DNA of 64,000 nucleotides, taken from positions 102,138 through 166,137 of the forward strand of contig JAQYUZ010000039.1 of the NCBI GenBank assembly GCA_033819885.1, written 5' to 3'. This DNA comes from Microbotryomycetes sp. JL201 (taxonomy: Eukaryota; Basidiomycota; Microbotryomycetes). Below the pieces are notes generated by a model that did no database searches, was not told the origin of the DNA, and was given only the letters and a program-made list of their open reading frames with translations. Positions within the stretch are counted from its first letter, which is position 1. Every line of letters begins with the position of its first letter. This document shows, one piece after another, positions 6,919 to 26,907 of the stretch. The position numbers were made by a program, and so were the translations under genes.

Positions 6919-8179
6919 ATGCCCATCCGACCAATCTCAAACTCACAAGAGCCAGCTCACTTTCTCGAGCTGGTGCACTCGCACGTGACGGAAAGTCTGG
7001 TGACTTTCATGCGACGGCATTCCACAGCGATTACAGTCGACTTGATCTCGCTTCATGAACGCTTTCGCGAGCAAAAGCGTAACCTGGCCGCGTGGGTCGA
7101 GGACAATCCTTTTTCAACGATTGTTCATCGAATAAGAATTGCATGGGCAGCTGGATTGGTAAGCAGTCCGGCCACTCCTGATCAAATCCACAGCTCTTCA
7201 GAAGTCCAGACCGGGGCAAGATGAGATCTCTGCTGATGTCTGCCCTCTCAGACCGCACTCGCCCGGTTCAATTCGGAAATTCTGCTGCCACTGCTGTGGT
7301 CAGTACGTGATCCGACCCACCGTCGTGAGATCGTGAATTTGTTCTTGTCCATTTAACCTGCGATCATTCAATCTTTTAAGCTGAATCTTCCTTGCAGATC
7401 AACTTGATTCTGGGTGACCCGGCTTTGCAATTGCCGTCGTACAATGTGCGACCATTTTTCGGCCACAGTCCTCCTTCCCGCCCGCAATCACAGATCGAAA
7501 CTTTGTGGGAGGCTTGGGGTCAGCAAAATCTAGCGCACGCACACCAGATGGGTCACGCAACAATTTCAAGTCCGAATGCGCGTATTCAAGAAGAGCTCAG
7601 GACTTCTCTTTGGCGAGAGCTTCATGTCGCACATGCTATATCCGACACCGTCCTCGCTCGGGTAACAGATTTGTCATTTCCACGTGCCTACGCTCTCGAA
7701 TGGCTCGACCTCCTCACGCTCGAGCCTATGATGTTGTTGCTCGAAGCCCTTGTTGCATTTCCCCACAGCCGCGCCGAGACCCACATTTCGGTGAGCTACA
7801 GGACACTTTGCTTTTTTGGGGGGGCCGATTTTGCAACTGACGGAGTTTTTAATAGCGATGGACTTGTGACTTTGTACTGGAAGACGCATTAGGCGAACGC
7901 TTTTACGCGCATCACCGGCGTTTTCGTTACACCATAGCCGAAATCGAGTATGATGCTCGACATCAGTGGTTTGAGAGCCTTTTCTCGTCATCAGAGATAG
8001 AGGCAATCGAGCACACTCTGGAGCGTCGACCCGGACCCACTGGACACTCAGAAGCTGACCAGCTTTTGATCATGGTTGACGACATTCACGAAAGAGTTCA
8101 TGTGCACTCTTTTTGGCATTGTGCGGGGTCCGGCTTTCTGACGAGCAGGCAACATCGTCGTTATTTTGCACAGCACTAA
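6919..8179 (+). CDS. Unknown protein A1 (tandem family A)
   Basis: Four exons with phase-0 introns at 7159-7251, 7303-7397 and 7791-7855 give 335 residues. The last exon (7856-8179) has no early ATG but is open for 107 codons. I do not recognise the protein. No signal peptide, membrane helix or catalytic motif is visible; it looks helical and probably intracellular. It aligns with A2 and A3: the start MPIRPIS resembles A2 MPRDPLS; RELHVA in exon 3 recurs in A3 and as REVQVT in A2; the last exon opens with RWTCDFVLEDA, like A3 SWTCNFDA. Near the C-terminus is SRQHRRYF, shared in form with A2 and the B genes. The ATG was chosen because it aligns with the A2 start. Confidence 0.6.
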
Positions 8180-8474
8180 GCATTATGGTTGTTGCACTAG
8201 CTATGGTCGCCCCTTGTCCTAGTTTTGTATTTATCTTTTGTCATGATGGCAACACGCGTGAGCAACTGCTTGTTGTTGCAACTTGCTCATCTTCTTCAGG
8301 TATGACGCATCCTCAAACAAACAGATAGAATCAGCATCACATGTGCTTTACTGAAGCATTGTCGCTATCTTCACTCGCCCTCCATCACAGGAGTCGTATG
8401 GCGGCCAACTCCGAGGACATTGGGCAGCGCAATTTCGGCCTGCTCAGTGCTACTCCGGGTACCAGTTCTGCGCA

Positions 8475-9589
8475 ATGCCTCGCGATCCTCTCTCAGACCA
8501 CTTACCGGTGACCTTTGTCCGCTTTATCAAAGCCCACTTGGTTGAATGCCTCACCTTGAACCGGGGTTTGACCGCACACCATGTGGCTCGCGACATTTCG
8601 TTTGCCGAGGAAATGTTCAACAGAGAGATAGAAATCCAAGCTGGACGTCATGGTCCAGTGGCATTGAGAGATGGCTGGGCTGGAGGCTTGGCGGCACTTG
8701 AGAACTTTAACCGGTTCCACCTGCTTCCTCAATGCTTCAGTATTGAGCACACTGACGCATCGCAAGCAATTGTGAGTTGAGAATTCTTCAGATAGATCAA
8801 GCGATGCTCATTGAGCCATAGATTGATTGTGTGCTTGGCACCGCATCATCGAATACTCCGCAAAATTTGAACGAGCTCAGCATCCTCATCAGCGCCTGGT
8901 TTCGCCACTTGCTGCTCTCAGCAGCCGGAGACCAGCACAGGATATTGCTCTTGGCGCTGCAACGAGAAGTACAGGTGACTCGCGCCACCGCGAACAAGCT
9001 AGTCGAACTGGTTCGCACGCGCCAGATTCGATCACATGATGCCGCAGCTCAATGGCTCAGCGAGATATTATTCGAGCCGTTTCTTCTGGTGCTAGAGGCA
9101 TGTACCGCTATCTACCGTGAGAGATGAAAAGCCAATGCTGACCCGTGATGCAGTTTGCCCTTGCATTCCATGAGGAAATGCACAGAAGCGCAAGCGTTAT
9201 CGAGTTGGAGGATGCATTTGTGAGCTGTATGACTGCTCGAGCTTGTTGCACAACATCTCACCACTGAACAAACTTAGGGCTGTGAATGCAGCTTCGAGCT
9301 CGGTGCTGACCGCGACGTTTCCTACGAACAATACATGTACATCAAGGCTCAGTTGCATCTGGCAGCACATAAAGCTCGTGCCTCAATCAAGAACCAGATA
9401 CCTGTGACCGAATACAACGCCGTCCACCACCTTTTCAAAAAGCGTCCACAGACCGCAGACCTTTTGTTGAGTGCTGCTCGGGCGCGCCAGTCGAGCAACC
9501 GGGCCACGCTCGCTTCGCTGCAGCATGCTTCTTTCACACTCTATACGCGAGCATTGACCAAGCGACAAGCGCGTCGCTTCGGTTTCTGA
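8475..9589 (+). CDS. Unknown protein A2 (tandem family A)
   Basis: Four exons, 316 residues, with introns 8772-8821, 9098-9153 and 9220-9277, all phase 0. The second intron is best read as GC-AG: donor GCATGT at 9098, acceptor ending 9153. No GT donor nearby keeps the frame, and this junction restores the alignment of LVLE-FALAFHEEMHRS with A1 LLLEALVAFPHSRAETH. A1 has no intron at that site. The last exon starts with GCECSFEL and ends with the RQARRFGF motif at the stop codon. Function unknown; no targeting signal seen. It sits 295 bp after A1 in the same direction, consistent with tandem duplication. Confidence 0.6.
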
Positions 9590-9951
9590 CGGGTGCGTGG
9601 AAGCAATTCCGGCATATTGGGCATGTCGGATGCAGTTGCGCGGCACGCAAGTGTGCATCAATGACCCAGATAGTCCAGAGCGCACCAGAGGTGAACGTTC
9701 CAGGTGAGCCCAGAGAGCTCGCTTGTTGTATCGTATTTGAGAGATTACTCGATATGCCACGCAATCGATCGCACGTGAGATCACCAAGAAGCTTGTTGTT
9801 AAATCTCGCTTGTATGCATTGGAAAATACCGAAAACCACCGCTAAGATTGCACAGCCTTGAGCTCCTGGCATCAGGAGCTGGAGCGTCGATCGCGCGGAG
9901 CTCACGCCTACGCTGTCACTCTTTCTGTCATCAAGCTGAACCGGCACCAGC
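9590..9951. other. Intergenic between A2 and A3
   Basis: No ORF or RNA supported. Presumably the A2 terminator and A3 promoter. Confidence 0.5.
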
Positions 9952-10991
9952 ATGGATGGAGGTTTTCTGGACCACTTTCTGTTCCGTTTCAAGCGACTGG
10001 TCGATCACTGGGAGTCTAGCAACGTCAGCTTTGACCTCAATGGCGAGCCGTGGAACTTTTTGCAGGCGGATTTGACAGAGTTCAAGAAGCGGTCTTTCCT
10101 TTGCCGATCCAAGGACGCGGTGGCATACACGCACGCCGCCGCGTTGGACGCATTGCATGGATACAATCAAGAGCTGTTGCTGTCTGCGATGAATTTCGCT
10201 CCAGCCGCATTAGGAACGCTTGTAAGCAGATAGTCTGTTCACGATCATTTATCTGGTACTGATGGCTCGCTCCAAGCGTAGGAGACCCTTTTTTGGGGAG
10301 CGGACGAGATGACGGACCTCAAGTTTTACCATTTTCCAAGGTCCGAGTCACAATTAGAGCTCTTCTCGCAAGCTTCGCACAGTCTCATGCACAAGACCAC
10401 AGCTCAAGACAACGCATGGAGACAGGTGATGCTCCGCGAGCTCCACGTTGCTCGGTTCGCCTTTCGGTCGGTCTTGCGGCTGCCGGCGTATCGCAATCTG
10501 TCGAACCTCATTTTTGTGGTGATGGAGATCTTTCTGCTTGACTTGCAACATACACTCACATACGTAGAGAAGTGTGACTACGTCAGACAGGCTCATCCAG
10601 TGAGTTTCCGGTTGTGACTAAGTCACCGTTTGCTTGGAGAAACGCCACCGAGCTGAGTGCCTGTTGCGGGTGCGTGCAGGCGATTTCGTGGACATGCAAT
10701 TTTGACGCCCTTCAAGGATCCCTCGCGGAGCACATTCATGCCGAGCGTGACGAGTATGCGCGATTGCACGGTCAGGAGGCGCTGATTGGGCAATGGGTCA
10801 ACTATCGCCGCTTGGACGGCGCATTCAATGGCCTGTCGGCGTCCGAGCTATTGGATCATTTGGAAGCTGAGAGAAGGACTCGAAGGCGGGCTGACCGCAG
10901 ACTCTTTGGCCGTGCTCAGAGCGTTCAAGCTCGGCGTGTCGCATTGCAGGTCAACCCTCGGGGACAAGTCAGGCGCCACGCGAGTGCATAG
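9952..10991 (+). CDS. Unknown protein A3 (tandem family A)
   Basis: Three exons with phase-0 introns 10222-10281 and 10600-10679 give 299 residues. Exon 2 carries MLRELHVARFAFRSVLRLP, the clearest copy of the family A block. Exon 3 begins AISWTCNFDALQ and ends in a basic tail in which the RQ-x-x-R-[YF] motif of the relatives is eroded to VQARRV. Function unknown. The start is less certain than in A1 and A2: it begins MDGGFLDHF and lacks the MP..P start, so an upstream exon is possible. Confidence 0.55.
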
Positions 10992-11214
10992 ACCCTCGGA
11001 TAGATCCTGTTGCATTCGATCGAGCTGGAGGTGATTGGTCCGAGGTGCTCTCTTGCATTAAATTAGGACAGGAGGCGAGGCCCGTGCGCGCGCGCGCCGC
11101 GTCGACGCGCGCCGTGCATTTCCTCTGCATTGCGCCCCGGCCCGGACCCCAAACGCACGCTCCAGTGTTGCATGCGCGTGTGATTCGTCCGAAGTTTCAT
11201 CGCCGCCCGTACCC

Positions 11215-12647
11215 ATGTCGTCGTCGTCTGGATTTTCGTCGGCGACAGTCTTGTCGCTGCCGCCGGCGACACGCGCGCTCACGCTGCTGCTGATCACGTG
11301 CTCGACGCTGTTGTTCCTAACACGCGTGACGCAGGCGCCGCGTGATGTCAAGCAGGCGCTCGGCGCGAGCGACGGCATGGTCGACTGGCTCGTCGTCACG
11401 CCGGGCAACGTCATGTGGTACCCCTGGACACTCCTCACAAGCAGCTTTGTCGAAAACAATTTGATCGAGTTCCTGTTCTCGCTCTTGACCCTCCCACTCG
11501 CCGGCCGGTACCTCGAACGCGTCTGGGGCCAACTCGAATTCCTCAAATTCGTCGCCGTCGTCGTCGTTGCATCAAACATCGTTGCCTGCGTCGTCAGCTA
11601 CATCGAAGCCGTCGTCCTCGGCAACCCAGCCTTGTTCTTGTGAGACGCGAGCTGGAAACACTTTCGGCCATTGGATATGAACGAAAAGCGCTCGAGGCAA
11701 GCTGACATGTATCCATACAGGTACGGCATGAGCTATCACGGCCTCATGGCATTGCAGACCGGCTTCCTTGTTGCTTTTACGCAACTTATTCCAGAGCACC
11801 AAGTCCAAATGCTCGGCGGACTATTCAAAATGAGGGTCAAGGTGCGCACGCCCACTATGAGGTACAACCGTAGATCTACGCTGAGCTCTCCTTGCAGTCC
11901 TTGCCGATGCTCTACGTAACAGTCTCCAATGTCGCATGCCTGCTGGGCTACCAATCACCGTGGATCTTGATCCAGTTCGGGTGGCTCATCAGTTGGTTCT
12001 ATCTGCGCTTCATCAAGATCAACGAAGGTGGAGAATTCAGAGGAGACAGATCAGAGACGTTCAGCTTTGCCGCTTGGTTCCCACCGTTCGCTCAGTGCGC
12101 TTGCCTCTTGATTTTTCTCCCTGATCGACACTAACGAATCGATCTATCAGGAAATACGTCTCGCAATTGACCAACTTTGTCTTCAATTTGGCCGTCAGGT
12201 TCAAAATCTTGACGCCATGGCCCGACCTTGAATCTGGATCGACGGTAGGTTACACGGCCGTACCAGGTGGCGCTCGAGCCGAAGCCGAGCGAAGAAGGTA
12301 CGTCCTACAAGGGCCCCCTCGGAAGCTCCGTCCTTGGCATGTTACTGACTGTCCAAGTGCGCGCTGTCTTCAGGGCCTTGGCGTTGAAAGCTCTCGACCA
12401 AAGAATGGCTTCAAAACCATCACCAAACCCTCAATCCTCCGGATCGGGTTTCGCTGCAGGTCCATCCACCTCAACAACAGCATCTCCAGCCGGTGCACCT
12501 GCGGTCCCTGCCACTGCAGCGACGACTCACGCAAGCCCGTCAACGACACAATCAAGCTCGACAACCTCAAGACAAGGTTCGGTCGTAGCGGTCGATTCTA
12601 GTGCAAATACTCAACCGACGTCGGCAGAGCAATCAACGATGCAGTGA
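11215..12647 (+). CDS. TMEM115/DUF1751-like rhomboid-fold membrane protein
   Basis: Five exons (introns 11640-11720, 11842-11897, 12095-12150, 12298-12373) give 387 residues. The N-terminal two thirds has several hydrophobic helices and matches the DUF1751/TMEM115 family, a rhomboid-like group without protease residues; TMEM115 is a Golgi protein linked to retrograde traffic and glycosylation. Recognisable features are WYPWTLLTSSFVE, the WGQLEFLKF stretch, SYHGLMALQTGFLVAFTQ and, after the last intron, the family's RRRALALKALDQR helix. The final ~75 residues are Ser/Thr/Ala-rich. The last intron matters: splicing 12297 to 12374 joins AERR to ALALKALDQR, whereas unspliced frames lose that block. 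Confidence 0.85.
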
Positions 12648-12984
12648 TACCGGGCGTGCGGACTTGGTACATTGTAGCAAACATCCATCTGTCCTAGGTC
12701 TTGCTTCGGGTAGCCCTTGCGTAAGCGAGTATGACTTGCAATGTAGGCTGCGAGATGACGAGAGAGATTGCAACATGGTTCTAACTAAAACACACAAAGA
12801 AGAACGCGGAAAAAAGGAGGAAAAAAAAAAAAGAAACGTAAAGTATGCGACTGCGAATAAATGTTACGAAAGGCAGATAACGAAAAAGAAAAAAAAAAAA
12901 AAAAGGGCAAAAGTGGCGAATCCAGAATAATGACAAGCTCCCTGGCCGGCGCGTACTATTGTACACCATGTCGAAGGGATTCGA
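12648..12984. other. Convergent 3' region with A-rich runs
   Basis: Lies between the stops of the TMEM115-like gene (+) and the zinc-finger gene (-). Contains two A-rich runs near 12817-12832 and 12883-12904. No gene seen. Confidence 0.6.
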
Positions 12985-15900
12985 TCAAGGTTCTTCTAAT
13001 CCCTCGCTGTGCAAGTTACTGGTTGTCGTGCCAATGCTCCAACGTCTTTGTCTCGATCTGACTTGCCCGCCGCTCCCAGCCGCGTCTGAACGACTTGTCG
13101 TGAGTCCGGCAGAAGATGATTTACCGAGGTCGAGGTTCGGAGTGGACATCATTGACGATGTAAACGTAGCAGGTTTAGGAGTATCCGTCACGCTCTTGTT
13201 CCCTCCTGCACCTCCTCTCCGGCCGTCAGCATCAAACGTCATTTCGCTCCTCAAACCAGACATAGTCGTATGATGTCCACTCGTCGTCGCCGAGGATCCT
13301 CCAGTGACATCATCGTGTACACCTGCATGAGCCGCACCCAGGAACCCAGGTCCAGGTTGACTCGCCAGACCAAGTTGCTTTGAAATGCCAGGGTGGGCAG
13401 GTGATGAAAACATGTAATTGATGCTTGGTGGTGAAGAAGTCGGATTGCTGGCGTAACCGGCGGACATGAAGTTGAACCCAGTGTTGCTGTTGATGTTGTT
13501 GTTGTTGTTTGACGAACTGATGCCTGCACACATATTCGAACGTCAGTAAGGTTTCGCATATGCAAATAGCGGGAGGAGGAAAACGTACCAAACGGAATGG
13601 GATTCGAAGCCGACCTAGACATGCCTTGTGCGAGAGCAAGACCTCGGCCGTTCGAGGTATGAAAGTGGTCGACCGAGTTCAAAGTCATTTGCGCCGGCGC
13701 CGGCGTCGACAAGATGGATGATGAAGGATGTGGTGGCGGCATAAGTTCTGTCGAGCTTGGATGGGCACCAGACGAAGTATTGTCGTCGTCCGACCGCCGA
13801 CGATGAGCCGAGGACGAAGACGATTCAATGTTGAAACCGCCCAAATCAGATGACAAGCCAACGGGGTGGTGATGATGCAGAGCGATCGGTTCAATACGAC
13901 GAGATCCTTGGGACGAGGGAAGATATCGAGATGATGCAGACGAAGACAACAAATCCGAGTTGGCACCGTGTCTCGTCGACGTGCGACCACCTGACGAGCT
14001 TGACGACACGTTTTGCTTGCGTCCGGTGCCGTACTGCCGACTCGGACTGGCGTCTGCTGCGCTTGATCTCCTCTTTGACCGGCGTTTGGTCCGTCGGCTT
14101 TCGTCGTCGTCCAAAAGATCGCCGTCATCAAGCGCCGACTCGCCCCGTGCAGTCAAGTTGCCTTCCTCATCGTTATCATCGTCATAGTCATCGTCATGCA
14201 ATCCACCATCGAGTGCAGGTGAGCTCTCGAACGACATGGCGATCTGGTTGCCCGGTGTCGGAGTCGCCGTCAAATTGGCATGCTGAGCAAACGTCATTGA
14301 AGAGTTGCCAACTCGCATCGCGTCTGACGCTCGAATCTTGCGAGCAGACGCCAACAGTGTATTGACATTCGCTCGAGTTGACGAGTCTGGCGAATCTGAC
14401 GCGGCGCGTTTGCGAGGCGACACAGACCCGACGACGCTCGTCCCGATGACCGGGCTCAGCACATTCGAGACGGACGAGCCTCGCTCAGGAGTCGGACCAC
14501 CACGGTGAGCTGGGAAATCTTGCGGCCATGGCCGACTTGCCGAAGCCGACAAGTCCGAGGATTCAGACCCAGGACTGCGCTTGCCGTCATCGTCTTCGTC
14601 TTCGTCCTGAGTCGAGTTCCGACCTGACAAGCCAAGTTGACCGTTCACTTCATCATCATCATCGTCTTCGTCTTCGCGAGTCGTTCGCGCGTGCGAGATG
14701 GACGAAGCAGGCGAAGCGACTTTCATGGCGATCAGTGCGTTCGCGGCATCCTCTGCTCGCTCGTACGGTTTGCCTCCGCTTCCACCGCCGATGCTCGACA
14801 GCCCGGCCGTCGTCAAGAATTGTGCTCTTACAGGAGACCGGAGCTCGCGCGAACCAGATTGTGAGCGCGAGTGAGAGATGGGCGACGCCTGTCGACGGTC
14901 AAAGAACGTCAGATTGTTCGGCTGCGTTTGCTGTTGCATTGCGTGTGCTGTAAACGGGTTCGAGATCGTCACCGGAGTTGAGGATGGCCGGGCGAGTCCG
15001 TAGCGTGGGTCTGCGGCAGCGTCGTGCATGCTGCGGTAATATTCTGCCTCTGGCGGAGGCGGATACAAAGGCGCCGACAGCGGGGCAGCGTACGAATTGG
15101 CCGCATAGTGAGATACGGCATACGAATCTTGGTAGTAGCCGGTAGGCGCCTGAGGATGTGTTGCGTAAACGACCGGACCCCGCGGCTGAGAATAGGCGTT
15201 GCCAACGCGCTCGGGAAATGGCGGATGACGGGAGTCTGCAATGTCGAGAGACGCAGCATAGACTGGCTGATGTGACGATGCTCGCTCTCGACTTGGTCCT
15301 GCCAGCGGCTGATCGTACTCGCGCAGCCTAGTCGCGTTGCGGCTATAAATCGAATTGGCGAGTGGAGCCGTCTGAGCGACAGCTTCTGGAACGGCTCGTT
15401 GCGCTGATCGGGCTGAAGCATTGCGAGAGTGCGTCGTCGAGTTCGGTTGAGCTGAGGTCGCCACTGATGCACGTGCGCTGCCGCGCGACTTGCGCTTGCC
15501 CTTGCCGCCTTCATCGTAATCTGAATCGTCTCCTTCAACGGCGCCGTCGTCATCGTCTTCGACATCTTGACCGTTCCACTTGCCAGAGACGGTGACTTTC
15601 CTGTCTTGCTCCTCTGGCGCGGGCGTGCCTGCGGCCGATTCAATGTCGACAGACGCGCTCTTGTCTGCGCGCTTGGCGGCGCGCGACTTGCGAGCCCACT
15701 GGCGTTTCGAGTTGAGCACGCTTGAGTGTCTTTCTTCCTCTGTTTTTTGTTTGCTAGCATCTGCGCGAGCGAAGAACAATAGTAAGTATTGCACTTGGAA
15801 CGAGCCTGCATGCCTGATGACGTCTCGGTGGCGTGAGGCGGTGCAGATAAAGGCACGCGCACGCCCTGAACAGCCAGGGTCGACTCACCATTGTCCCATC

Positions 15901-16510
15901 GAGTCCGACGCGGTTGCTGACTTAGAGGGATGCCGTGCTTGTCTTGCAAATGCCTCCTCCAAATGGACCTAGCGTGCTTGCCCTGATACACCTTGTCGCA
16001 ATGCGCACACCTGAATGATGTCGTCTCGCTTGATGCCGGACCAGCCGGATTGTCTGTATAGTCTGGCGCGAGGTACAGAGGTTGGCCATCGTTGCTCTGA
16101 GTAGCAGGACCCCGCTGCGACGCATCCGCAGTACCGTCAGTAGGGCGGGGCTCAGCTGCTGGCTGTTTGGCTTTCTGCGCGCGTCGTCTGGGTGCCGTGG
16201 ATGCCAAGTTTGATATTGCCAAAGACGCAGACGATGCTGACGGCTTGATGCCCTGCCCGGCTGATGCCAGTTTCGTTGGCGACGAACGGGACGCGCCTGG
16301 TTTTGTTGACGCGCCAGCCATTGATGTGTCATCGTACGCGGTGGCGTTTTCGGCATTTGGAAGGTACATCAGGGCAATTTGATGCGAGTAAGACGCGTGA
16401 GCATCCGCGTTGAACGTATGCGCGACGTGCAAGCCAGGGCCAAACGCGTTGTTGACACCGCCGACGGCAGGACCGCGGGGCAACGAGGCCGCGTAGGTCA
16501 GCGGCAGCAT
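12985..16510 (-). CDS. Large zinc-finger protein with low-complexity acidic regions
   Basis: Three exons (introns 15761-15888 and 13524-13588) give about 1,110 residues from the ATG at 16510. Around residues 165-190 is a C2H2-like finger, C-x2-C-x15-H-x4-H (FRCAHCDKVYQ then IWRRHLQDKHG), followed by PRRTRWDN and, across the first intron, ASKQKTEEERHS and a basic RQWARKSRAAKR segment. This arrangement is seen in fungal DNA-binding proteins, so a nuclear regulator is likely. The rest is Ser/Pro/Gln-rich with several Asp/Glu clusters and a poly-Asn run. The start is uncertain: a 5' exon at 16855-17143 could splice to 16296 instead, replacing the first ~70 residues. Confidence 0.7.
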
Positions 16511-16747
16511 GGCGACAGTGGCGAAATCAATGTCAGTCGCAAAGGATTCCGGCAGTTTGATGGTCGGATTGGGCCGATGGGCCGTGAAGAGTGCAAAAGA
16601 TCGAGAGTGATCCCGTCCGTAAATGAAAGCGAACGCGGCCAAATGACGCACCGGCAGATAAAAGGGGAATCCGACCAGCGAGTAAGCCAGACCATGTACA
16701 ACAGTATTTTGAAGATAACAGATGCAGAGAGCAAGGTGCGTGTCAGC
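16299..16747 (-). other. 449-bp tract with no AG on the sense strand
   Basis: Reading the + strand base by base, no CT dinucleotide occurs between 16298 and 16748, so the minus strand, sense for the zinc-finger gene, has no AG. The tract spans the annotated start codon. Such AG-free stretches precede 3' splice sites that use a distant branch point, and the first AG downstream lies in a frame-compatible acceptor at 16297. Confidence 0.8.
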
Positions 16748-17638
16748 CTGATATTTTCACATATGATCGGATGCAGGCAGAGCTGAGCGAGTGCAGGCGC
16801 AGCAGCAGCTCGGTCCGGCGACATGTGCAATAGACAGATAGAGCGTCGACTGACCCTCGTTTGCAGTTGCCCGCTGCCTCGCCGTCCTGTTTGGGGTGTT
16901 GTTTGTTGAACCAACGCCGGCGGCGGCAACAGTGGCCGCGCTCGTCGAAGCGGGGGCGCCGTCGAGCACATACTCGTCGAGCATGGTCGCACGTTTGACT
17001 TGACGCCTCGCCCGGCCGCTTGCGGTCACTGCTGGTGCGTCTGCGTCTTCATGAGCGCCGTCGTCGCCCGCCTCGCCGCGCCGAGCTTTCGCATGGCGCG
17101 GCGTCGCTTGCATGAGCCCATCGGCATCGTCTGACGCAGACATGCAGGGCCAGCCTCGGCAAAGAGGTCTGCCGCGTGCGTTGCCGTTGCCTTTGGTGGG
17201 CGCGCGGGCGCAGAATCGTACGGCGGTGAGAACGAGTTGATCCAACTTCTGCCTTAATCTGCAAATAGACAGTCAACAGGGGCACTGACAGGCCGAATGG
17301 GAGCAGATTGCAGTACAAGTGTGACAAAAAGACGTCCCGAGTCTCTCCACACGCCATCACGGCATCCGCCGCTCATTCGCCAGAGCCTGCGTGCTTGCCG
17401 CCGGAGATCTGCAGGCTCTCATGGGCAAACGACTGTCTATGAGAGCTACAAATCGTCGGCAGTCGTTGATTCAGTCTCAGCTCTTGTTCTCCAGGGGTAT
17501 CCATGATCGTACAGACTGCGCCAATAGTCTTGTGCCACCGATTCAGACCCTCTTCGTCACACGCCCTCCCGAGCTCACAAGCATCGCAATACAACACATC
17601 GCAAGGACTCCTCCAAGTTAAAGCAAAATTTGCAAGTC
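16511..17638. other. Upstream region of the zinc-finger gene, possible 5' exon
   Basis: Holds a minus-strand open stretch from an ATG at 17143 to a GTCAGT donor at 16854 (exon 16855-17143, phase 1, 96 codons plus one base), rich in Ala, Arg and Asp and ending near RQRATANEG. It may be a first coding exon of the zinc-finger gene. From about 17250 to 17638 I see only the downstream side of DBP7 and no other gene. Confidence 0.35.
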
Positions 17639-20595
17639 TCATCTTCTCCTCTTTTTGCGCTTGCCACCGGTATTGGCGCCTCCGTCAGCGCCGACGAACC
17701 CTTTGCCGGCCTCTTTCAACAAACCGTCGTCCGCAATATGAAACTCTGAACTGCCGAGGCCGCTCGGTCCTTTCATCAATCGGCGCATGCGAGCCTCGGC
17801 GTCGAGCGGGTTCTTTCGACGACCCGTCTCGAAAGATCCGCCGTCCTCGTCGTCGGCCTTTGCTTTCGCGGATACTGGTGTCGATCTCGCTTTTTTGGCC
17901 TTGTCTGATGTGCCAGATTGATGTCCATGTCCCATCGCGCCAGGAGCCTCGCGCAAGCCGAACGACTTTGCCAAGTGACCGAGGTGAACTTGACGCAGGT
18001 TGAACATGTGCTTTTCGGCAGAAGGATGTGTCGCATAAGCTCGAACATGTGAAGTGAATGCGTTGCGAGCGAGCGAAGAGTGCTACACCATACGATTTAC
18101 GACACGTCAGTCACATTGTAGCGCGATATTTCCATCAATGACTATCGACTGACCTCGGTGTCTGCGGCGACCCATCGTTCGAAACCCATCTGGACATCGG
18201 TCGCTCGTGTCTCGTACTCTCGTCCTTGTCCTCCAAAGCCCGTCTTTAGCACGTCCTCGACCCCAAGCTCATGCAGCTTGACGCCTTTGCCACTCGCCGT
18301 CGCTGTCGTCGAGCTGCCGCCAGGTGTCGTCTTGCGCATGCCGTCTTGGACCCACGGTATCCAGTCACGTTCCGTAGGTAACACGAAAGCCGTAGCCGTA
18401 CCTTGCTTTCCGGCACGAGCTGTACGACCAACCCTGTGAACATACTCTGTCACGCCACCTTCGGTCGGCAAATCGTATTGAATGACGTGTCCAACGAAAG
18501 GGACGTCCAAACCACGAGCGGCAACGCTGGTACACAGCAAAACAGCATTCTCGGTTTGCTGCCCTTGCATTTTGCCGGATGGCACGACCGATTTTGAAGA
18601 AAATGCAGCGAGCGAGCCCAATCGCGTTTGCAAATCGAGATTTCCATGCAGACGGTACACCGGAACGCCCGGCAAGACGACAGAGTACGAAGCCAAAACT
18701 TTCGACTTGTCAGGCGTCGCGTCGTCCTCGTCATTCTCATTGTCGTCCGTTGTTTTACTTTTTGGTACGTCATCGCCAGTGCTGGATGACACCATGCTCA
18801 TCTCCCCAATTGCCTTCCAGTAAAAGTCGACGGCAGCCGTACACGACATGAAAATCAACACTTTTGTGCCATTCGGATGGCTTTGTCGTGCTTGAGGCGA
18901 AACTAGCAGCTTGCGCAACAGAGCGAGCATTGTGACGAATCGAAGTTTCGGAGGACACGTGACAAAATTGTGAATGAGCTGTGTCGGTGGCGTGAACGTG
19001 ATCGCGGCTCCGTTCGGGGCACGGTCTTGCAGGACGTCCTGCACATCATTGCCATCGCTGTTGCTATCGTCTCCACCTCTGTCCTCGTCACTTCGTGCTC
19101 TTTTCCTGCTGCTCGCCTCGGCCGCCTGCTTTTCGACGTTCTTGACCAACGCACCAACACCCTTTGACGAATCGACCGTCAAAGTGACCGGGTCCTTCAA
19201 GGCCAACCCAGCCAGCCTGTCGACGCCTTCGTTTGCCGTCGCCGAACAAAGCACCGTTCTGCGCCTGACGAGATCATTTGGACTTCGTTTCTCAACCTCT
19301 TCCAAAACTCCCTTCATCTGTTCCTCAAAGCCCAAATCCATAAGTCTGTCACACTCGTCCACAATCAACCAACGGAGTCCAAGTTTCCTATCGGTGCTCG
19401 AAGATGCAGCGGACGATGCATAGACGGAAGGACGGCCTCTGGGAGGGCCTTGAGGTCCGGACCCGTTCGAAATGGGTCTAGGTTGTTCGCCCGCGAAACG
19501 GAACGCTTCGGTCGTACGAAGGTGATCGAGCAAACGTCCGGGCGTGGCCACGATGATTGGACAACCCTTGCGCAACCTTGACTTTTCGTGAGTACGGTTG
19601 GCTCCTCCGACTAGCAGACATGGTGTCAAAGCACGAGGCGAGACAGAGAATGGCGAGGATGATGATGAGCTAGGGATCGTCAGCAGTTGTTCGAGAACGT
19701 TGTAGATTTGCGACGCAAGTTCACGAGTCGGTGCCAGGACGATGGCGAGCGTGCCGATTGCTCGCGAGGGTTCAGCGCCTTGCAAGACGGATTGCGGTAG
19801 GTTCAACAAGTCTTGAACCAATGGCAGCAGGAACGTCAGCGTCTTGCCGGAACCCGTCTGCGCTTGCAAGATGGCGTCGCGTGGCGTGCTTGGCTTTAGA
19901 GCGGGTGGCGACACGCCAGAGAGCAAAGTCGGAACGGCAGACGCTTGACATGCGGTAGGTCCGGTGATATCGAGTTTGTTGACGAGGTGAGATACAATCT
20001 CGTGCTGCAAGCCAAGCGCCGAAAGCGCAGGCGCGGGGGAGGGCCGCGCATCTTTGGCTGGTGATGACTCTTCCTCATCGTCATCCTCCCTCTGATGACG
20101 CAGAGGAGCGTTTGAGGGTTGCGAGGGCACTATTGGCTTATCGTTGTCTTGCTGCTGCACTTCTGGCAGACCTTCGGCCGAGAACAATGACGAAATGTAT
20201 TGCTTCTTGCCGTCCGGGCCGACGACCCGCTTGCTCTGACCTCCTTGTGATGGTCCAACAGTGCCCGGCTGCTTTGACTTTGGAGCGATACGCTGTTGTC
20301 GTGCAGAATCGGATGTAGCCGAAGCTCCGGACTGCTCTGTTCCCGCAGCGGGAGCCCGGGCAGCGGCTCTTGAAGGCCTGGACGCCGATTCATTAACCTG
20401 AGGTTGCCCCTGAGGTTGCGTCGTGGCCCGCTGCTCGTGTTTGAGCTTGATTTGCTGTCGCCGCTTGTCTTTGACGCGATCTGTCCAGCGACCACCGCCG
20501 TGCTTGGCCGAACGAACAGCAGTTCCAGCTTGAGACGTGACCTTAGACGTACTTGGGGCGCTGAAGTTGACCATCAGGTCGTCGTCGCCCGCCAT
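17639..20595 (-). CDS. DBP7: DEAD-box RNA helicase Dbp7 (DDX31 family)
   Basis: Two exons (intron 18083-18153) encode 961 residues. Dbp7 is a nucleolar ATP-dependent RNA helicase for 60S ribosomal subunit assembly. Motifs are in order: AQTGSGKT (~245), [17 protein letters not shown], the Walker B variant DECD (~413) where most family members have DEAD or DEGD, SAT (~452), AARGLDVP and [10 protein letters not shown] (~723). The N-terminal [15 protein letters not shown] block and C-terminal [20 protein letters not shown] with [15 protein letters not shown] are characteristic of Dbp7; the end is a basic KRKKRRR nucleolar-type tail. The acidic/Ser insert between motif III and the second lobe is long. 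The start ATG gives [14 protein letters not shown], as expected for the family. Confidence 0.95.
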
Positions 20596-20975
20596 CGCGG
20601 CGATTGCGTCTTTTTTTTGAGCGGCGACTTGGACAAGCTGCAAGCAAGCAGATTCAGCAAAGGTGGAGTGTATTTTATGGTGTAAAGATCTTGTCAGGAA
20701 GTACTTGCGACGCGAAGATCGTCTCCTGGTGGCGGAAATCGGCGTAAGAAGGGAAGAGGGAAGGAGCGCCGAAGTCACGTGCCGGCGAATAAGACAGATA
20801 TTCGCAACAAGTGAAGAAGCCCGCTTATCAGCGCATCCTCGGTTAGCTCCGCCGTCAATGCACCGCATTTCTCTGCTAGCCTCCTCGAATCGGAAACTCC
20901 GAGGACTGACCCTCGGTGCGTGCCTCTTTGCAAGGCTTTCCCCTAGGCTTCCATTCTTCCGGGCAGCCAGCCGTC
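20596..20975. promoter_or_regulatory. Divergent promoter of DBP7 and B1
   Basis: 380 bp between two divergent start codons. No specific element can be assigned with confidence. Confidence 0.5.
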
Positions 20976-22817
20976 ATGGAATACAATCATGAAACCAGCG
21001 ACTCCGAATTTGATCGCGCTTATGAGAGGGCCCAAGCACACGAAGTGCTGCAAGATTACAGCAACGAGCAGGTCTTGGTATCGGTCGCACAATTTCTCAC
21101 TGAAGTCAAGCCGCACCACGGAATCATGGAGGACAGCGACAAAGGACGTATGATGAAGTTTCTATTCCATATGAAGAGCCTCTTCCACTTTTACGAGTCT
21201 TTTCACTACGAAAGGCATAGTGCGAATCCGCAGTTCTATGTCCGGTGAGAGCAAAATAAGTCTGCGTGACACTTTCAACTGACTTGGCAAGTGCAACTGA
21301 CATTAGTGACCCAGCAATTTTGTCCGAATACCTTCGTGAAGCTGTCCATGAGTTGGCGCTCTGGGACGTCAACGTGAGCCCTGGAACACACTGGGCGCGT
21401 ACTTTCTTGGCGGGTATTGCCGCTCTTAGTGCTAGATGGAAGACACCATTTCCCGCTCTGACAAGCTTTTCACCGTCTCATCATGTACGCAAATTTACAG
21501 GGGATTCGTCGTGAGCGAATCTGATCTATGGCTGATTGCTCCTTTGCAGCCTCTCGAATTTGTCTCAAACATGACGTCTTCCTTCCTGTCTACCAATCAT
21601 GAGTCGCATTTCTCGAATTTGGAAAAGCTGTCAAAGATGCATGCTTCGGGATTTGTGATCGACAACTTTCGACACCAGCCGACTCTTCAAAATTATGGTC
21701 TGCAGACTCCGCTCAATACTCTGTGGCTTGCATCACAAGCCTTCAGGATGTTTGGATTGGATAGCTCAGAAGCTTGCCTATTTCCAAATGCAGTTCTGCC
21801 CTGGAAAGATGATCCCGACTTTGCCGGATACAACATTTTCGGCGTATTCACCACAGCTGTTGAACAGCCGATCACTCGAGCCATAACTGGAGTCAAGGGA
21901 TCCTCTGTTACCGGTAATACTGCCGCCGGCTACTTCGTAACCAATAAGCCTCTGCATAACAAGGATGCGGAGGACTTGAAGGATCGACCGTTGAACTTGG
22001 TGCGAATGCGAGCGTAAGACGACGAGTTTGATGACATCTGACATTGATTCCAGGTCTTTGCCCGAAGGCTGTCCACACCTGTCCGACCGCGCAGTCCGCG
22101 TAAGTCCTGCGGGTTGATAAGCTGCCTGCAGATCATCCGGCTGCTTTCTTCTGAGGCTTCTTCTGACGCCTTTGCCCTTTTGGTATAACTCTGAAGTTTT
22201 CCTCGCCACGCAATTTGTCATGGTAGCGACCTACGTTCTTTTCGCTCACTTGAACCATCAAATCAAAGTGGAGCACGAACTACACGTGAAGCTTGAAGAA
22301 GACGAGCAAAGGAAGCGAGAGCACTTTAACGCTCTCCTACGAGGGGAATTGAATACTGCTTTGATGTATCATCTGGTCCCCCGCCGATCGTCTGAAACTC
22401 GACAACAGGACATGGACTACTATAGCCCAGAATTCGAGCGATTGCCGCCCTTGGAGAAATGCAAACTCCTTCTTCAGCTACTAGAAGCGCTGAGATCGGT
22501 AAGATGCTCCCAGTACAGCCGCAGTTGAGACCACTAACCCTAAGGTGCAGGCCAAGCTGACACACAAAGTGGACGAGCTTCTTGGAAGACAGTTTGCGAA
22601 CTGGAAATTTGATGTGACCGAGAGCTTGACCATGCACGAGCAGAATGTTGAAAACCTCAACATCAAGATCGGATACACTCGAAACTCACACCAACGCCAT
22701 ACACAAGCACATTCGAGCTCAACTGGTCCGATGCATATGGCAAATCTTTCCCCTAGACAGGGGAAGCGGTATGGCGTGAATACTCGGGTTTTGCAGAGTA
22801 AATGGGGTATGCTGTAG
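20976..22817 (+). CDS. Unknown protein B1 (tandem family B)
   Basis: Six exons give 509 residues. Introns: 21245-21306 (phase 2), 21485-21549 (0), 22014-22053 (2, only 40 nt), 22104-22196 (1) and 22499-22550 (0). The fourth intron is inferred from the conserved phase in B2 and B3; it uses GTCCTG although a GTAAGT lies four bases upstream, because only this choice keeps the frame. Blocks shared with B2: GTHWARTFLAGIA, YGLQTPLNTLWLA (B2 LQGVETPLDCVWIA), YYSPEFER before LLLQLLEALRS, then AKLTHKVDELLGRQFANWKFD in the last exon. Near the C-terminus is LSPRQGKRYGV. I do not recognise a fold or enzyme motif, and there is no signal peptide. Confidence 0.6.
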
Positions 22818-23129
22818 ATGAACAGGTGCAAGTGTAGTCATGCGTCTGAGCAGCCAAACGGTGGCGCTCGTGCGGCCCCTGACGCGATAGTCTACAACCA
22901 ATGTAGCCGTGAAAGTACAAATAAAAGGGCGGCGAGGCGCCACGTCGAGGTGCCTTTTGGGCTGTTCAGGCGTTATTAGTGTAAGTGTTCGAACACAAGG
23001 CTCCCGAATGTAGCATACTTTTTGCACCGCTCTTGCGAGCGCCAGGAGCCTTGGCTTTGAAAGTCCGAGGCTGGGTAGGATGGCAGCAAAAGTGCTTTTC
23101 TTGCATCGTGACCACCTGTCACAATCACC
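22818..23129. other. Intergenic between B1 and B2
   Basis: No gene or RNA supported; presumed terminator and promoter. Confidence 0.5.
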
Positions 23130-24887
23130 ATGTCGGCCCTCACGCACGCGCACGAGCCACCCTCGGTGACTGCCAAATCAGAAGCGCTTCATGTACTCAA
23201 TCTTGGCACAGATGCCGAGATCCTCAACGAATTTAAATGTTTTGTCGATCGGGCCAAGACAGACGGCCACATGCGTGGCGTAAACATAGTTCTCTATCGG
23301 CTCTTTCAGAACTACTGGTCCGACGTGTGGATGGCGCGCTTGTATTTTGACGCAACTGGATTTGGCCATGGGGGGAGACGCGTGCACATCACGCAAGTCG
23401 GACAACTGTTTGTGTCTCAAAGCTCGCTGATATCGGAACTTTGACAGGGACATGAAGGAAACCGCAATATTTTGCACTAAGGCACTCCAGTTCTGCAAAT
23501 CTCGCATTCTGCTGGACAAGAAAGGAGGGCAGGTGGATGGCACACATTGGAATTGGTATCGCATCCTCTGGGCGGCAATCGCTTATCAGCAGGAGCTTAT
23601 GGCGCTCAGCAGGCACACACGTATACCACCCCAAGACAACCTCCGGATTCCTCTGCCTCGAATTCGACACGTTATAGATACCGAGCGCGGACTATCGTTC
23701 GAGGAAGCACTTACATGGTTATGTAACGTGAAGACGTCCCGGTTCCAGTCGACTGATCTGGCGGATTACGACTTGCAAGGCGTTGAAACGCCGCTCGACT
23801 GCGTCTGGATTGCTCGCACGACACTAGTCTTGCTCGGGTTCGGTCCAGACGGCTCGACAGCTTTTTTCGAAAACATGAAGTCGCCATGGCGTCAAGAGAG
23901 GGTCTGGACTGATTATGCGCCGTGGACGCATTTCGAGACGATTGCAGAACGTATCTCAAAGATCGTGACCGGGGAGCAGGACGTCAGAGCGAGGGATGAA
24001 AAATGGTACATTCCGTTCGACAATCAACTCAAGACTGTCGGAGAAACCAAAAAACATCAGTCCCAGCCATTTGCGGTGGTAGGCTGTTGGCAATCGATAT
24101 GTACTGCATCAGACTGATGAGGCGGTCGCAGTTGTTTGCTCGTGCAGGGGTCTACAGTGAACCTGATTACGACTGCCCGCGTGCGCACACGAATCGCTTT
24201 CACATGCTGAGTAACTGACCGTGTTGAGACACAGTTGATCGCTGCACAGAATTTGTGCTTGTGGCGGCCCAGGTCCTGCGTCAGCATCTTCAAGACATGT
24301 CCAAAAGCGAGCAAGCCTCACATGATCACGAGAACGCCACTGCCGCGATGAACAGTCCCGCACTGCAAATATTTGTGGACGAGATTGCCACTGAGCACGT
24401 TTGTGCGAAGTTGGAGAAGCGCTCCGGCGGAGGCGGATATCACAGTCCCGAATTTGACAGAAAGAATCCAATGCAGAGGAGTGTGTTGCTGCTTGGCTTG
24501 ATACTTGCGTTAAAGGAGGTAAGTTGCTCCCTCAAAAAACAAAAAGGTTGTGCTAACTCTGCTCGTTAGCTCCGTTTGACCCACCTGGTTGATTTTTATC
24601 TTGGGCACGGAGCTTGCAACTGGCAATTTGACTGTTGCTCGAGTCTCAAGAGGCATATAAGAAAAGTTCGAGAGCTTAATGAAAGCTATCCAGCCGTAGC
24701 GAGGAACAGAGGCCACGCGCCCGCACACCACGTGACGGAGGAGCAGAACGCTGAATCACGCAGCAGTCAGGAAAGGAGGGCATCGACTGAATCGCACCGG
24801 TCTATTGACATGGCGAGGCGAGAGGCTCGCCAGGAGCAAAGGTACCGCACGACCACGAAGGAACTGCGAGCCAAGTGGCGACCCTAA
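23130..24887 (+). CDS. Unknown protein B2 (tandem family B)
   Basis: Five exons, 524 residues: introns 23408-23447 (40 nt, phase 2), 24079-24131 (0), 24211-24249 (39 nt, 1) and 24519-24570 (0). The second intron of B1 is absent here. The weak donor GTTTGT at 23408 is chosen because it restores the same phase-2 junction as in B1 and B3. Aligned blocks: DGTHWNWYRILWAAIA, YDLQGVETPLDCVWIA, EFVLVAAQVLRQHLQDM, GYHSPEFDRKNP, LRLTHLVDFYLG with NWQFD, and C-terminal ARQEQRYR then LRAKW (B1 LQSKW). Function unknown; the ~120-residue tail is rich in Arg, Glu and Ser. No targeting signal visible. Confidence 0.6.
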
Positions 24888-25076
24888 ATTTGATATTGTG
24901 TAGCGATACACGGTAAGCCTGAGTAGCATACCAAAACCATGTTCTGCTTGAATTAAGATAAAGTGCCTATACTGCCCTCTTTTGGCCTTGGAGAGGCTGT
25001 ACCGCCGAAAGAAACCTCCTGACGCGCCGTAAAGTCCGGATGCTGTGCTCACATTTCTTGTTCTCTTGCCAACGCC

Positions 25077-26907
25077 ATGTTTCCACCCCAAGAGCTACGC
25101 GCCAAGGACATTGAAGAGGCTGCATTCACAGCAAGACGCATCTTGTCCGCGCACTCGCTGATTGACACAGATGACCAAATACACGAAATTCTGCGCAAAA
25201 GGCTGAGCCCGCGCCTGGGTATCGAGGGACCAGCAACACACCATCTCATCGAGATCGTTTGCGGTTATCGAAACGAGGATGTGGCGGCGCTCTTTGGGTC
25301 CTATCAAATTATGCCAACTCACCTGCACATTTTGTGAGCATTGTTCCGCCCGAATCACTCGATGTGCTGTTGAACGGTGTGACAATCTCTGTAATGCCCA
25401 GGCACAAGCACAATTTCTATTGGGGTCTGCACCATTTTGTCGTCTGCGGCCTTCACCATGTCCCCGTGTCCTGGAAGCAGGCTCGTCATCAGATGCACGA
25501 GAATGTCGAGCATGCTTTTCGAGACACTTTCAGCCACACTGCGGTCTCGATGTCGAGGTCCTTTATGGAGTTGTCTCGGACCGATCTTGACGTTCTGCTG
25601 TTGCACAATCTCCCTGGGTTTGAGAAGTACCTGGTTCGAGCTGCAGTGGCGGTCTCGGGTTTCCTCCTATCTCTCGATTGGGCTGTGAGTCCTCAGCAGA
25701 ACCGGGAGTCCTGGCTCTGACACCGAGCTCTGATGTAGCCGTGGTGGGTCATCGAGTCGATGATCTACCGCAAAATCAATCTAACCTTCCAAGATCTCGC
25801 GGCATTTCACTCTCAGCAAGCCAAAGAAGAAATTCTGTACAAAGCAAAGCGCCTTCTCTTTATCGGAGAAATGTCGTTACACATATTCTTCCAACATTCG
25901 ACGTGGCCGGCGTTCTTTAAACGCTGCAGCCTGCTGAAGCGGCTCTCCGACTCGGAAGCGTGGCGCACCTTTGAGCCGGTCCAACACTATCACACAAATC
26001 ACATCGCACCGGCAATGCCCTTGATTGAAAGAGCAGAGACTCTGCTGAGAACTGGACATGAAAACATACCCATACCAGTCAACGAGAATCGATTCCTGAA
26101 ATACTTTGCCGACTTTTTCGGACCGATGAGCAATGAACCCAACTTTGTAAAGGGGCACACGCTCGTGAATGCATGTTCAATTCACTTGACCGAGAAACGG
26201 CTGCATTCTGATTGGACTTGATGCAACAGGTCTTCAATACCACGCGGTGTGCCAAAAGCGATCAGACGCCACTCGACCCCTGTCAGTAACGAGTCGCCTG
26301 CTTCCGGTCGTTCCTGTCGATTGGCCATTGCGCTGATATTGAGCTCCGATGTATAGTTTCACTCACACGCCTTTTCCTTTGGGCCGCGCGCGAAGCCATT
26401 CACGAAGCCGCAACCGCCAGTTCAAAAGAGATGACTGGCCACGAGGACGAAATTATCTCGGAAGAGACTGGAGCCTTGCTCGGGATACTGATCGATCATA
26501 TTCCTCAACACTTGGGATTTTCAGCTCATGAGGAGCATCATCGCGCTCCTCCGCTCTCTTCCTACAAAATCGGTCATATTTGCGAGGCTCTGCTCATACT
26601 ATCGTTGGCGATACCTCTGGCAAGATCCATAGCTTGGTTGTTGCGAACAACGTGATCATTGACATTTGTTCCGTCCACGCAGCTTGGACTGTCGTCCAGA
26701 GTTGACAGAAAACTCGAGCCGTTTCACATTGAAATTGATTGGACGTTTGATTGCTCATTCCCGTTCCTGACTCTTGAAAGGTTCATGGAAAGTTTGAATG
26801 AGAGGATTCATCGAGGCGATGAAGAGATGATGATGATGTCGCTGACGCCACGTCAAGCCGAGAGATACAATATTGACAAATCGCGGGCTCTCATCGGATG
26901 GCATTAA
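25077..26907 (+). CDS. Unknown protein B3 (tandem family B)
   Basis: Six exons, 504 residues: introns 25298-25338 (phase 2, 41 nt; an alternative is 25334-25401), 25685-25738 (0), 26147-26229 (0), 26282-26356 (1) and 26620-26682 (0). The last is read as GC-AG with donor GCAAGA, because it reproduces the phase-0 junction of B1 and B2 (LLILSLAIPL joined to LGLSSRVD). It is the most diverged of the trio but keeps the layout, the HKHNFYWGLHHF block in the position of B1 GTHWARTFLAG, the WTFDCSF motif in the last exon and C-terminal SLTPRQAERYNI. Function unknown. B3 follows B2 by 189 bp in the same direction. Confidence 0.55.

Follow-up and report, generated by a model that had tools for sequence, protein, structure and literature searches.

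The six genes in the window, by which we mean the 64,000 nt of contig C33 of Microbotryomycetes sp. JL201 that were analyzed and whose end coincides with the contig end, are on sequence grounds very probably members of one orphan family, whose roughly 17 loci fall into five clusters (C, D, E, A and B). The earlier note had described six paralogues in two tandem trios, which is too few, as three further clusters (C, D and E) lie on the same contig upstream of A and B. On balance we favor the explanation that local duplication and strong divergence (birth and death) gave rise to an orphan family, whose members may combine a variable body with a docking tail.

Gene models and paralogy within the trios

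Spliced models of all six genes were obtained on the + strand without internal stops, and their ends agreed to within one base with those proposed before. The models and the features used below are as follows.

A1, + strand: exons 6919-7158, 7252-7302, 7398-7790 and 7856-8179; 335 aa; RWTCDF at 7856, tail SRQHRRY at 8144
A2, + strand: exons 8475-8771, 8822-9097 (GC donor), 9154-9219 and 9278-9589; 316 aa; last exon starts with CECSF, tail KRQARRF at 9560
A3, + strand: exons 9952-10221, 10282-10599 and 10680-10991; 299 aa (OIV83_005109); WTCNF at 10689, no RQ tail
B1, + strand: exons 20976-21244, 21307-21484, 21550-22013, 22132-22498 and 22551-22817; 514 aa
Features of B1, + strand: core block about 21694-21897; WKFDV at 22602; tail PRQGKRY at 22752
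B2, + strand: exons 23130-23392 (GC donor), 23448-24100, 24235-24518 and 24570-24887; 505 aa; junction 24100/24235 uncertain
Features of B2, + strand: core block about 23776-23979; WQFDC at 24621; tail ARQEQRY at 24825
B3, + strand: exons 25077-25333, 25402-25684, 25739-26174, 26357-26619 (GC donor) and 26683-26907; 487 aa; junction 26174/26357 uncertain
Features of B3, + strand: WTFDC at 26740; tail PRQAERY at 26848
Family signature exon (last exon), + strand: 22551-22817 in B1, 24570-24887 in B2 and 26683-26907 in B3; phase-0 acceptor, short helix, NWKFD (B1), linker, conserved tail

Similarity inside each trio was compared with that of 400 shuffles. For the A genes this yielded p values of 4e-12 (A1-A2), 6e-6 (A1-A3) and 0.02 (A2-A3), and for the B genes 5e-26 (B1-B2), 2e-4 (B1-B3) and 4e-4 (B2-B3). 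Judged by these scores each trio is a true set of paralogues, with p between 5e-26 and 4e-4 in five of the six pairs and 0.02 for A2-A3. A shared exon layout, also proposed before, was found within each trio and is only partial between them. Between the trios, where three conserved genes had been placed, five frames were scanned; a Pfam domain was detected in two of them (DUF1751 and DEAD helicase) and none in the other three.

The last exon and its relatives on contig C33

What recurs in the family, with the exceptions given below, is a last intron in phase 0 followed by a short helix, the motif [NDC]-[WF]-x-[FY]-D, a linker that varies and a tail of the form L/M-[ST]-x-R-Q-x3-Y-G...W. The tail L/M-[ST]-x-R-Q-x3-[YF] is present in A1 (LTSRQHRRY), A2 (LTKRQARRF), B1 (LSPRQGKRY) and B3 (LTPRQAERY) and is matched in part by B2 (REARQEQRY); A3 lacks it and has the C-terminus PRGQVRRHASA. 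The ending RQ-x-x-R-[YF] is thus present in five of the six genes, as had been reported. Across all six frames of the window (127,996 codons) the pattern [PKRAS]RQ..R[YF] occurs seven times, five of them in these genes, and W.[CFA][DNES][FC] four times, all in the last exons of A1, A3, B2 and B3. The motif was said to start the last exon, which holds for the A genes, with CECSF and no W in A2; in the B genes the W follows 17-19 residues.

In B1-B3 the phase-0 last intron lies just upstream of the short helix. Among the A genes an intron near this position was found in A2 only, and a phase-0 intron at the motif itself in A1, A2 and A3. A phase-0 [CT]AG no more than 9 nt upstream of the helix motif was present at 9 of the 13 loci examined. 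Mean pairwise identity in the last exon was 31% in the tail (47% in the RQ core) versus 13% in the linker, with 6% expected by chance. The description of the genes as fast-evolving fits these regional values of 13-31%, which compare paralogues.

A further cluster was reached from a B2 query (E 0.004 and 0.037). For the last exon, profiles were built with one cluster left out at a time and 4112 reading frames were ranked with each. When B was left out (nine sequences trained), B1-B3 took ranks 10-12 of 4112, directly after the training set. Left-out members of C were likewise placed at ranks 10-12, D3, D2 and D4 at ranks 10, 11 and 14, and E2, E1 and E3 at ranks 10, 11 and 15; the last exon of the B genes is therefore common to C, D and E. 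When the columns were shuffled, 12 times for each cluster, left-out members came no closer than rank 24 for A, 7 for B, 20 for C, 5 for D and 72 for E. A composite signature was found in nine frames on C33 versus one in ten Markov shuffles of C33 and in none in 90 kb sampled from nine other contigs, its patterns having been composed after family members were already seen. A tail-like word is also present at locus D1 (C33:36904-37077), which lacks a phase-0 acceptor close to the tested motif and was left out of the count.

Further upstream in the protein, B1, B2 and C2-C5 share a core block, (D/N)xxWLxxxxLxxxG...PW...W..Y. A profile trained on B1, B2 and C2-C4 recovered C5 as two frames (ranks 6 and 7), followed by an unrelated frame at rank 8 (E 0.026), which stood above B3 (rank 9, E 0.18) and D4 (rank 10, E 0.29). 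The tested frames of D2, D3, E1 and E2 were missed (ranks 111 to 1426), and the block was not seen in the A genes. Locus C5 looks frame-broken.

Domains, predicted structure and alternative origins

A Pfam scan of the six proteins gave no match above a family cut-off. HET, NACHT and NB-ARC were absent from the Pfam matches of the six proteins (E up to 10) and of 14 family pieces (E up to 1), one of which matched LRR_3 at 0.082. Two AlphaFold2 models built from thin alignments reached a pLDDT of 43 and 35 and were mostly helix at low confidence; as structure modeling failed, the term helical rests on these models. N-terminal hydropathy maxima did not exceed 1.27 and on this simple scale no signal-peptide-like stretch stood out, in agreement with the earlier note. 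Each protein nevertheless contains one hydrophobic stretch with a 19-residue hydropathy of 1.5-2.0, which in five of six exceeds 1.6, the usual mark for membrane helices, so that membrane contact is possible. The proteins, roughly 300 residues long in A and 500 in B, are probably helix-rich and intracellular according to these predictions.

Low identity throughout the family, models that are mostly helix at low confidence and the fact that Pfam may not reach such distances would all be in line with a known helix-rich superfamily whose members here have diverged too far for sequence profiles to recognize them. Candidates would be an adaptor family or the helical middle region found in fungal transcription factors. 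We regard this origin as rather unlikely, given that, at E up to 1, each Pfam family hit at most a single piece among the 14 body pieces and a single exon among the 12 last exons, and that the best PDB sequence match had an E value of only 0.75.

It is unlikely, too, that A and B represent separate tandem families, unrelated to each other, which share short C-terminal words by chance, with B, C, D and E alone forming one family. None of the nine direct A-B pair scores was significant (lowest p 0.007), and column shuffles reached the A-B profile-profile score in 0, 2, 5 and 11 of 150 cases as growing lengths of sequence were included. With the A-trio profile and an E limit of 5, no frame belonging to another cluster was detected among the C33 frames searched, and when A was left out (12 trained) neither A1 (E 4.4) nor A3 (E 260), which also lacks the tail, was recovered. 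A2, however, ranked 13 of 4112 (E 0.032), first outside the training set, a place that it also held among the 3918 frames listed in the column-shuffle test. Its phase-0 intron 22 residues upstream of the last exon is near the position in the B genes, 17-19 residues before the W, and A1 is tied to A2 by L-T-x-R-Q near the end and to A3 by W-T-C-[DN]-F. The link between A and B thus depends on intermediates outside the window (clusters C, D and E) and not on direct comparison, and we infer membership of the A genes through A2. The claim of one new gene family is accordingly supported for B and, to a lesser degree, for A.

A selfish or mobile origin, in which the family would derive from a virus, retroelement or meiotic driver and spread by its own action, is very unlikely. 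In its favor are the scattering of the clusters among housekeeping genes, a copia-like pol fragment on C33 and locus C5, which may be a broken copy; against it, each of the six modeled genes has 2-4 introns, no transposase, integrase or retroelement domain was found in the members scanned, and the B-trio query had no relative in viral contigs, where none of 145 pattern stretches was confirmed by tblastn.

Gene-prediction artefacts, which weak codon scores (several of the six genes at or below the low end of the nine Pfam-supported reference frames), guessed junctions at B2 exon 2/3 and B3 exon 3/4 and GC donors in 3 of 19 modeled introns might suggest, are hardly credible, since the copies are similar at the protein level with conserved intron phase, the modeled frame scored best of six in four of the six genes (narrowly outscored in B2 and B3) and NCBI protein OIV83_005109 is identical to A3 in every residue. 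NCBI protein OIV83_005114 spans the first half of the B1 model only.

Nine whole-genome protein queries, in searches that were insensitive, gave matches on C33 only, except for one to B1 on contig C34 (E 0.057), where the surrounding frames resemble a membrane transporter by eye; this match was set aside. The label lineage-specific was not borne out: protein searches that scored a capped or small number of candidates and did not use the family signature listed one protein in each of two cases, both from this genome, and none in a third, with no outside relative among the matches listed. No paper on strain JL201 or the C33 family was among the matches listed in the open-licence literature. A mating-type link was rejected, as the sole Homeobox_KN match found is on contig C1 and not on C33; a STE3 search gave no match at any locus and hence carries no weight either way.

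Possible function and comparison with known systems

Under the favored explanation of one orphan family, the variable body would do the recognizing and the conserved C-terminal tail LSxRQxxxYG...W would dock the members onto one common partner, a division by analogy with intracellular self/non-self or parasite recognition families. This step is a tentative proposal, made slightly less likely by the re-checked hydropathy. That the genes form a new microbotryomycete intracellular recognition system, a hypervariable clustered repertoire reporting via one partner on the RQ...YG...W tail and acting in self/non-self or anti-parasite recognition without HET or NLR domains, would be a speculative and improbable extension. 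A conserved tail with a freely changing body, clustered on one contig, is a pattern to look for in recognition or conflict genes, and few such systems are, to our knowledge, known in this fungal class. The six puzzling genes can now be treated as a family with defined limits and a signature to search with, which opens direct questions on its spread among fungi, its variation between strains and its binding partner.

Driver families such as wtf are tandem, fast-diverging and lineage-limited in fungi. The C33 family is alike in its tandem, fast-diverging copies, a likeness in description, and differs in that wtf proteins have several membrane spans whereas C33 proteins have at most one or few hydrophobic stretches. 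In Neurospora, lineage-specific genes are reported to be clustered with HET-domain genes near telomeres, and some of these HET genes to regulate self-recognition (PMC10684091). The Neurospora genes resemble the C33 genes in restricted distribution, few or no domains and clustering, whereas the C33 genes form a single homologous family without HET domains in the members scanned, on a contig with housekeeping genes. No telomere repeat was found in the window, which ends at the contig end.

In B1 the stretch KIGYTRNSHQR resembles T5orf172/MUG113 (PF10544, PF13455), with E values of 0.013 for the full protein and 0.003 for the last exon. The match covers about 31 of 101 profile positions and stays below the Pfam cut-offs (16.4 and 18.5 bits versus 20 for T5orf172, 12.2 and 14.4 versus 22.3 for MUG113). 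Being weak, confined to one of 12 last exons and within the least conserved linker, T5orf172 was rejected. A MerR-type HTH (GlnR, 4r4e) matched at E 1.8 over only 25 profile positions, and at E up to 1 none of the 12 last exons contained a Pfam HTH of this type; the likeness lies in the S-x-R-Q-x-x-x-Y of the MerR type, whose spacing from R-Q to Y is like that of the C33 tail.

Extent of the family on its contig

The six + strand genes of the window, A1-A3 (6919-10991) and B1-B3 (20976-26907), which the earlier note had proposed as possibly a single family, very probably form one, the A trio being linked to it through A2, but its size had been set too low, as about 17 loci in five clusters were counted on the contig containing the window (C33, 166,137 bp, with the window at bases 102138-166137; the genome comprises 17.15 Mb in 92 contigs). 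The family is new, and its evolutionary kind is already known. Its signature is the last exon, encoding a short helix, a W motif, a variable linker and a conserved RQ tail. When B2 was compared with the rest of C33, the region around 15-17 kb gave two minus-strand frames, at E 0.004 and 0.037, which have the core block shared by B1 and B2, (D/N)xxWLxxxxLxxxG...PW...W..Y, plus the tail GQSRRYRKTARQLRADW. The other loci were found by a core-block profile, a last-exon profile, the tail pattern and reading by eye; full gene models cover clusters A and B.

Clusters of the family on C33 (L-numbers are handles for stretches of C33)
C33 ~11.1-20.8 kb (L026:1100-10000 into L027), minus strand: cluster C, C1-C5
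C33 ~37.2-45.2 kb (L028-L029), plus strand: cluster D, D2-D4, with D4 separated by other frames
C33 ~73.8-80.4 kb (L032-L033), minus strand: cluster E, E1-E3
C33 109.1-113.1 kb, plus strand: cluster A, A1-A3
C33 123.1-129.0 kb, plus strand: cluster B, B1-B3

A recognisable last exon was present in 14 loci (A1, A2, B1-B3, C1-C3, D2-D4, E1-E3). A3 was counted through its paralogy to A1, and C4 and C5 through the core block, which in C5 (L026:1114-2391) is spread across different frames.

All six models of the window were rebuilt with open reading frames, the junctions of B2 exon 2/3 and B3 exon 3/4 being guessed. The NCBI protein OIV83_005109 is A3, identical at every letter. OIV83_005114 (Microbotryomycetes sp. 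JL201, basidiomycete; window 20976-22017) matched only the first half of B1; its end appears to fall within a modelled B1 intron and exon 2 is spliced differently, and it is likely a truncated annotation of B1. With a codon score trained on nine frames having Pfam matches, each held out in turn for comparison, the modelled frame came first out of six for A1, A2, A3 and B1 and was a close second for B2 and B3. The six models scored -0.05 to 0.09 bits per codon, overlapping the low end of the nine held-out known frames (-0.004 to 0.21). GC donors were seen at window 9098, 23393 and 26620, i.e. in 3 of the 19 modelled introns of the six genes, a share exceeding expectation.

Tests of one family

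Local alignment against 400 shuffles yielded similarity within the A trio (A1-A2 p 4e-12, A1-A3 6e-6, A2-A3 0.02) and the B trio (B1-B2 p 5e-26, B1-B3 2e-4, B2-B3 4e-4), while none of the nine A-B pairs (p 0.007 to 0.9) survived correction for nine tests. In a profile-profile comparison of A with B the RQ tail was the sole match (P 0.057), and the profile score was reached in 0, 2, 5 and 11 of 150 column shuffles as the compared part, at first starting with the W motif, was widened until it took in the whole protein. The window, read as 127,996 six-frame codons, contains the strict W motif at four places, always within A or B last exons, and the RQ motif plus the residue ahead of it at seven, of which five belong to the six genes.

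Each cluster was then left out in turn, and the aligned last exons of the remaining clusters were searched against 4112 C33 frames. The B members ranked 10, 11 and 12, right behind the nine trained sequences (E 8e-8, 0.002, 0.002), and so did the C members (E 5e-6, 0.012, 0.017). D3, D2 and D4 ranked 10, 11 and 14 (D4 E 1), and E2, E1 and E3 ranked 10, 11 and 15 (E3 E 0.37). With A left out, A2 came first behind twelve trained sequences (rank 13, E 0.032), followed by A1 at rank 24 (E 4.4) and A3 at rank 888. In a repeat with an alignment built from all twelve sequences, and thus with slight leakage, each of B, C and D took ranks 1-3 outside the training set, the E members took 1, 2 and 7, and the A members 1, 11 and 832. 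After column shuffling (12 per cluster) the best rank attained by a left-out member was 24 for A, 7 for B, 20 for C, 5 for D and 72 for E.

A core-block profile trained on B1, B2, C2, C3 and C4 placed C5 next (ranks 6 and 7), followed by an unrelated frame (rank 8, E 0.026) and, below it, B3 (rank 9, E 0.18) and D4 (rank 10, E 0.29). The frames looked up for D2, D3, E1 and E2 ranked 111 to 1426, indicating that the body is recognisable in part of the family only. Of 13 loci checked, 9 (C1, D2, D3, D4, E1, E2, B1-B3) have a phase-0 [CT]AG acceptor no more than 9 bases ahead of the conserved helix, and C2 and C3 have one 15-33 bases ahead of it; none was close to the helix in E3 and in D1, a locus left out of the count.

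Genomic distribution and setting

Nine whole-genome protein queries matched on C33 only, bar one match on C34 (E 0.057); these queries were weak, with 1 to 6 candidates scored each, and that with B1 misses B3. The C34 match was rejected as a family member, its surroundings resembling a transporter region. The composite signature, its patterns composed after family members had been seen, was obtained in nine frames on C33, six of them outside the window, and once in ten Markov shuffles. It was absent from 90 kb sampled from nine other contigs, where about five occurrences were expected at C33 density (Poisson p ~0.008).

Ordinary genes are present on C33 as well (SIR2, thioredoxin, coatomer epsilon, nucleoporin, pterin-binding enzyme, Sec8, DEAD helicase), and 9 of 20 scanned upstream frames had a Pfam match. 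Cluster A is immediately preceded by DUF3712 frames (window 783-2465 and 3315-4832; L034:8351-9901; L035:2332-3768), with window 783-2465 and L035:2332-3768 scoring alike in Pfam (138.3 bits). A copia-like pol fragment is located at L031:7914-9479 (C33:67.9-69.5 kb; Pfam gag_pre-integrs and retroviral SH3). The frame between the trios at window 14969-16756 had no Pfam match at E 0.001 and, judged by eye, contains a C2H2/BED-like finger, CAHCDKVYQGKHARSIWRRHLQDKH.

Relatives and proposed working

No Pfam family reached the cut-off in the six proteins, and scans of 14 body pieces and of 12 last exons at E up to 1 gave no family that recurred within either set. T5orf172 was rejected for B1: KIGYTRNSHQR (window 22665-22697) resembles part of it, below cut-off, and is not conserved in the family. 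The top match of a PDB sequence search had an E of 0.75. Among 5.8 billion proteins searched with signature-free queries, the first two of which scored about 8000 candidates sharing most words, two queries returned one protein each, both from this genome, and the third returned none. Given these limited protein searches, run before the signature was in hand, the family is possibly confined to this fungus.

Mean pairwise identity in the last exon was 31% for the tail (47% in its RQ core), 20% for the helix and W motif and 13% for the linker, with a chance level of 6%. A short conserved end on a freely changing protein suggests a common partner bound via the C-terminal end. Family members would bind this one partner through the conserved end, and the variable body would meet something that itself changes. 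Recognition or conflict biology is a usual setting for families with a conserved end and a variable body; that the present family works in this way, its end docking on one partner and its body facing a changing target, is a speculative reading which we hold to be rather unlikely. The nearest described case found is in Neurospora, where lineage-specific genes form clusters with HET genes (PMC10684091).

No prominent N-terminal signal-like stretch was detected in the six proteins. Each has one hydrophobic stretch of 1.5-2.0 on the 19-residue hydropathy scale, five of them above the usual mark of 1.6. In five of the six it lies shortly ahead of or spans the start of the last exon, e.g. at window 7704-7760 (A1) and 26578-26619 (B3), and both a buried core helix and a membrane helix would fit.
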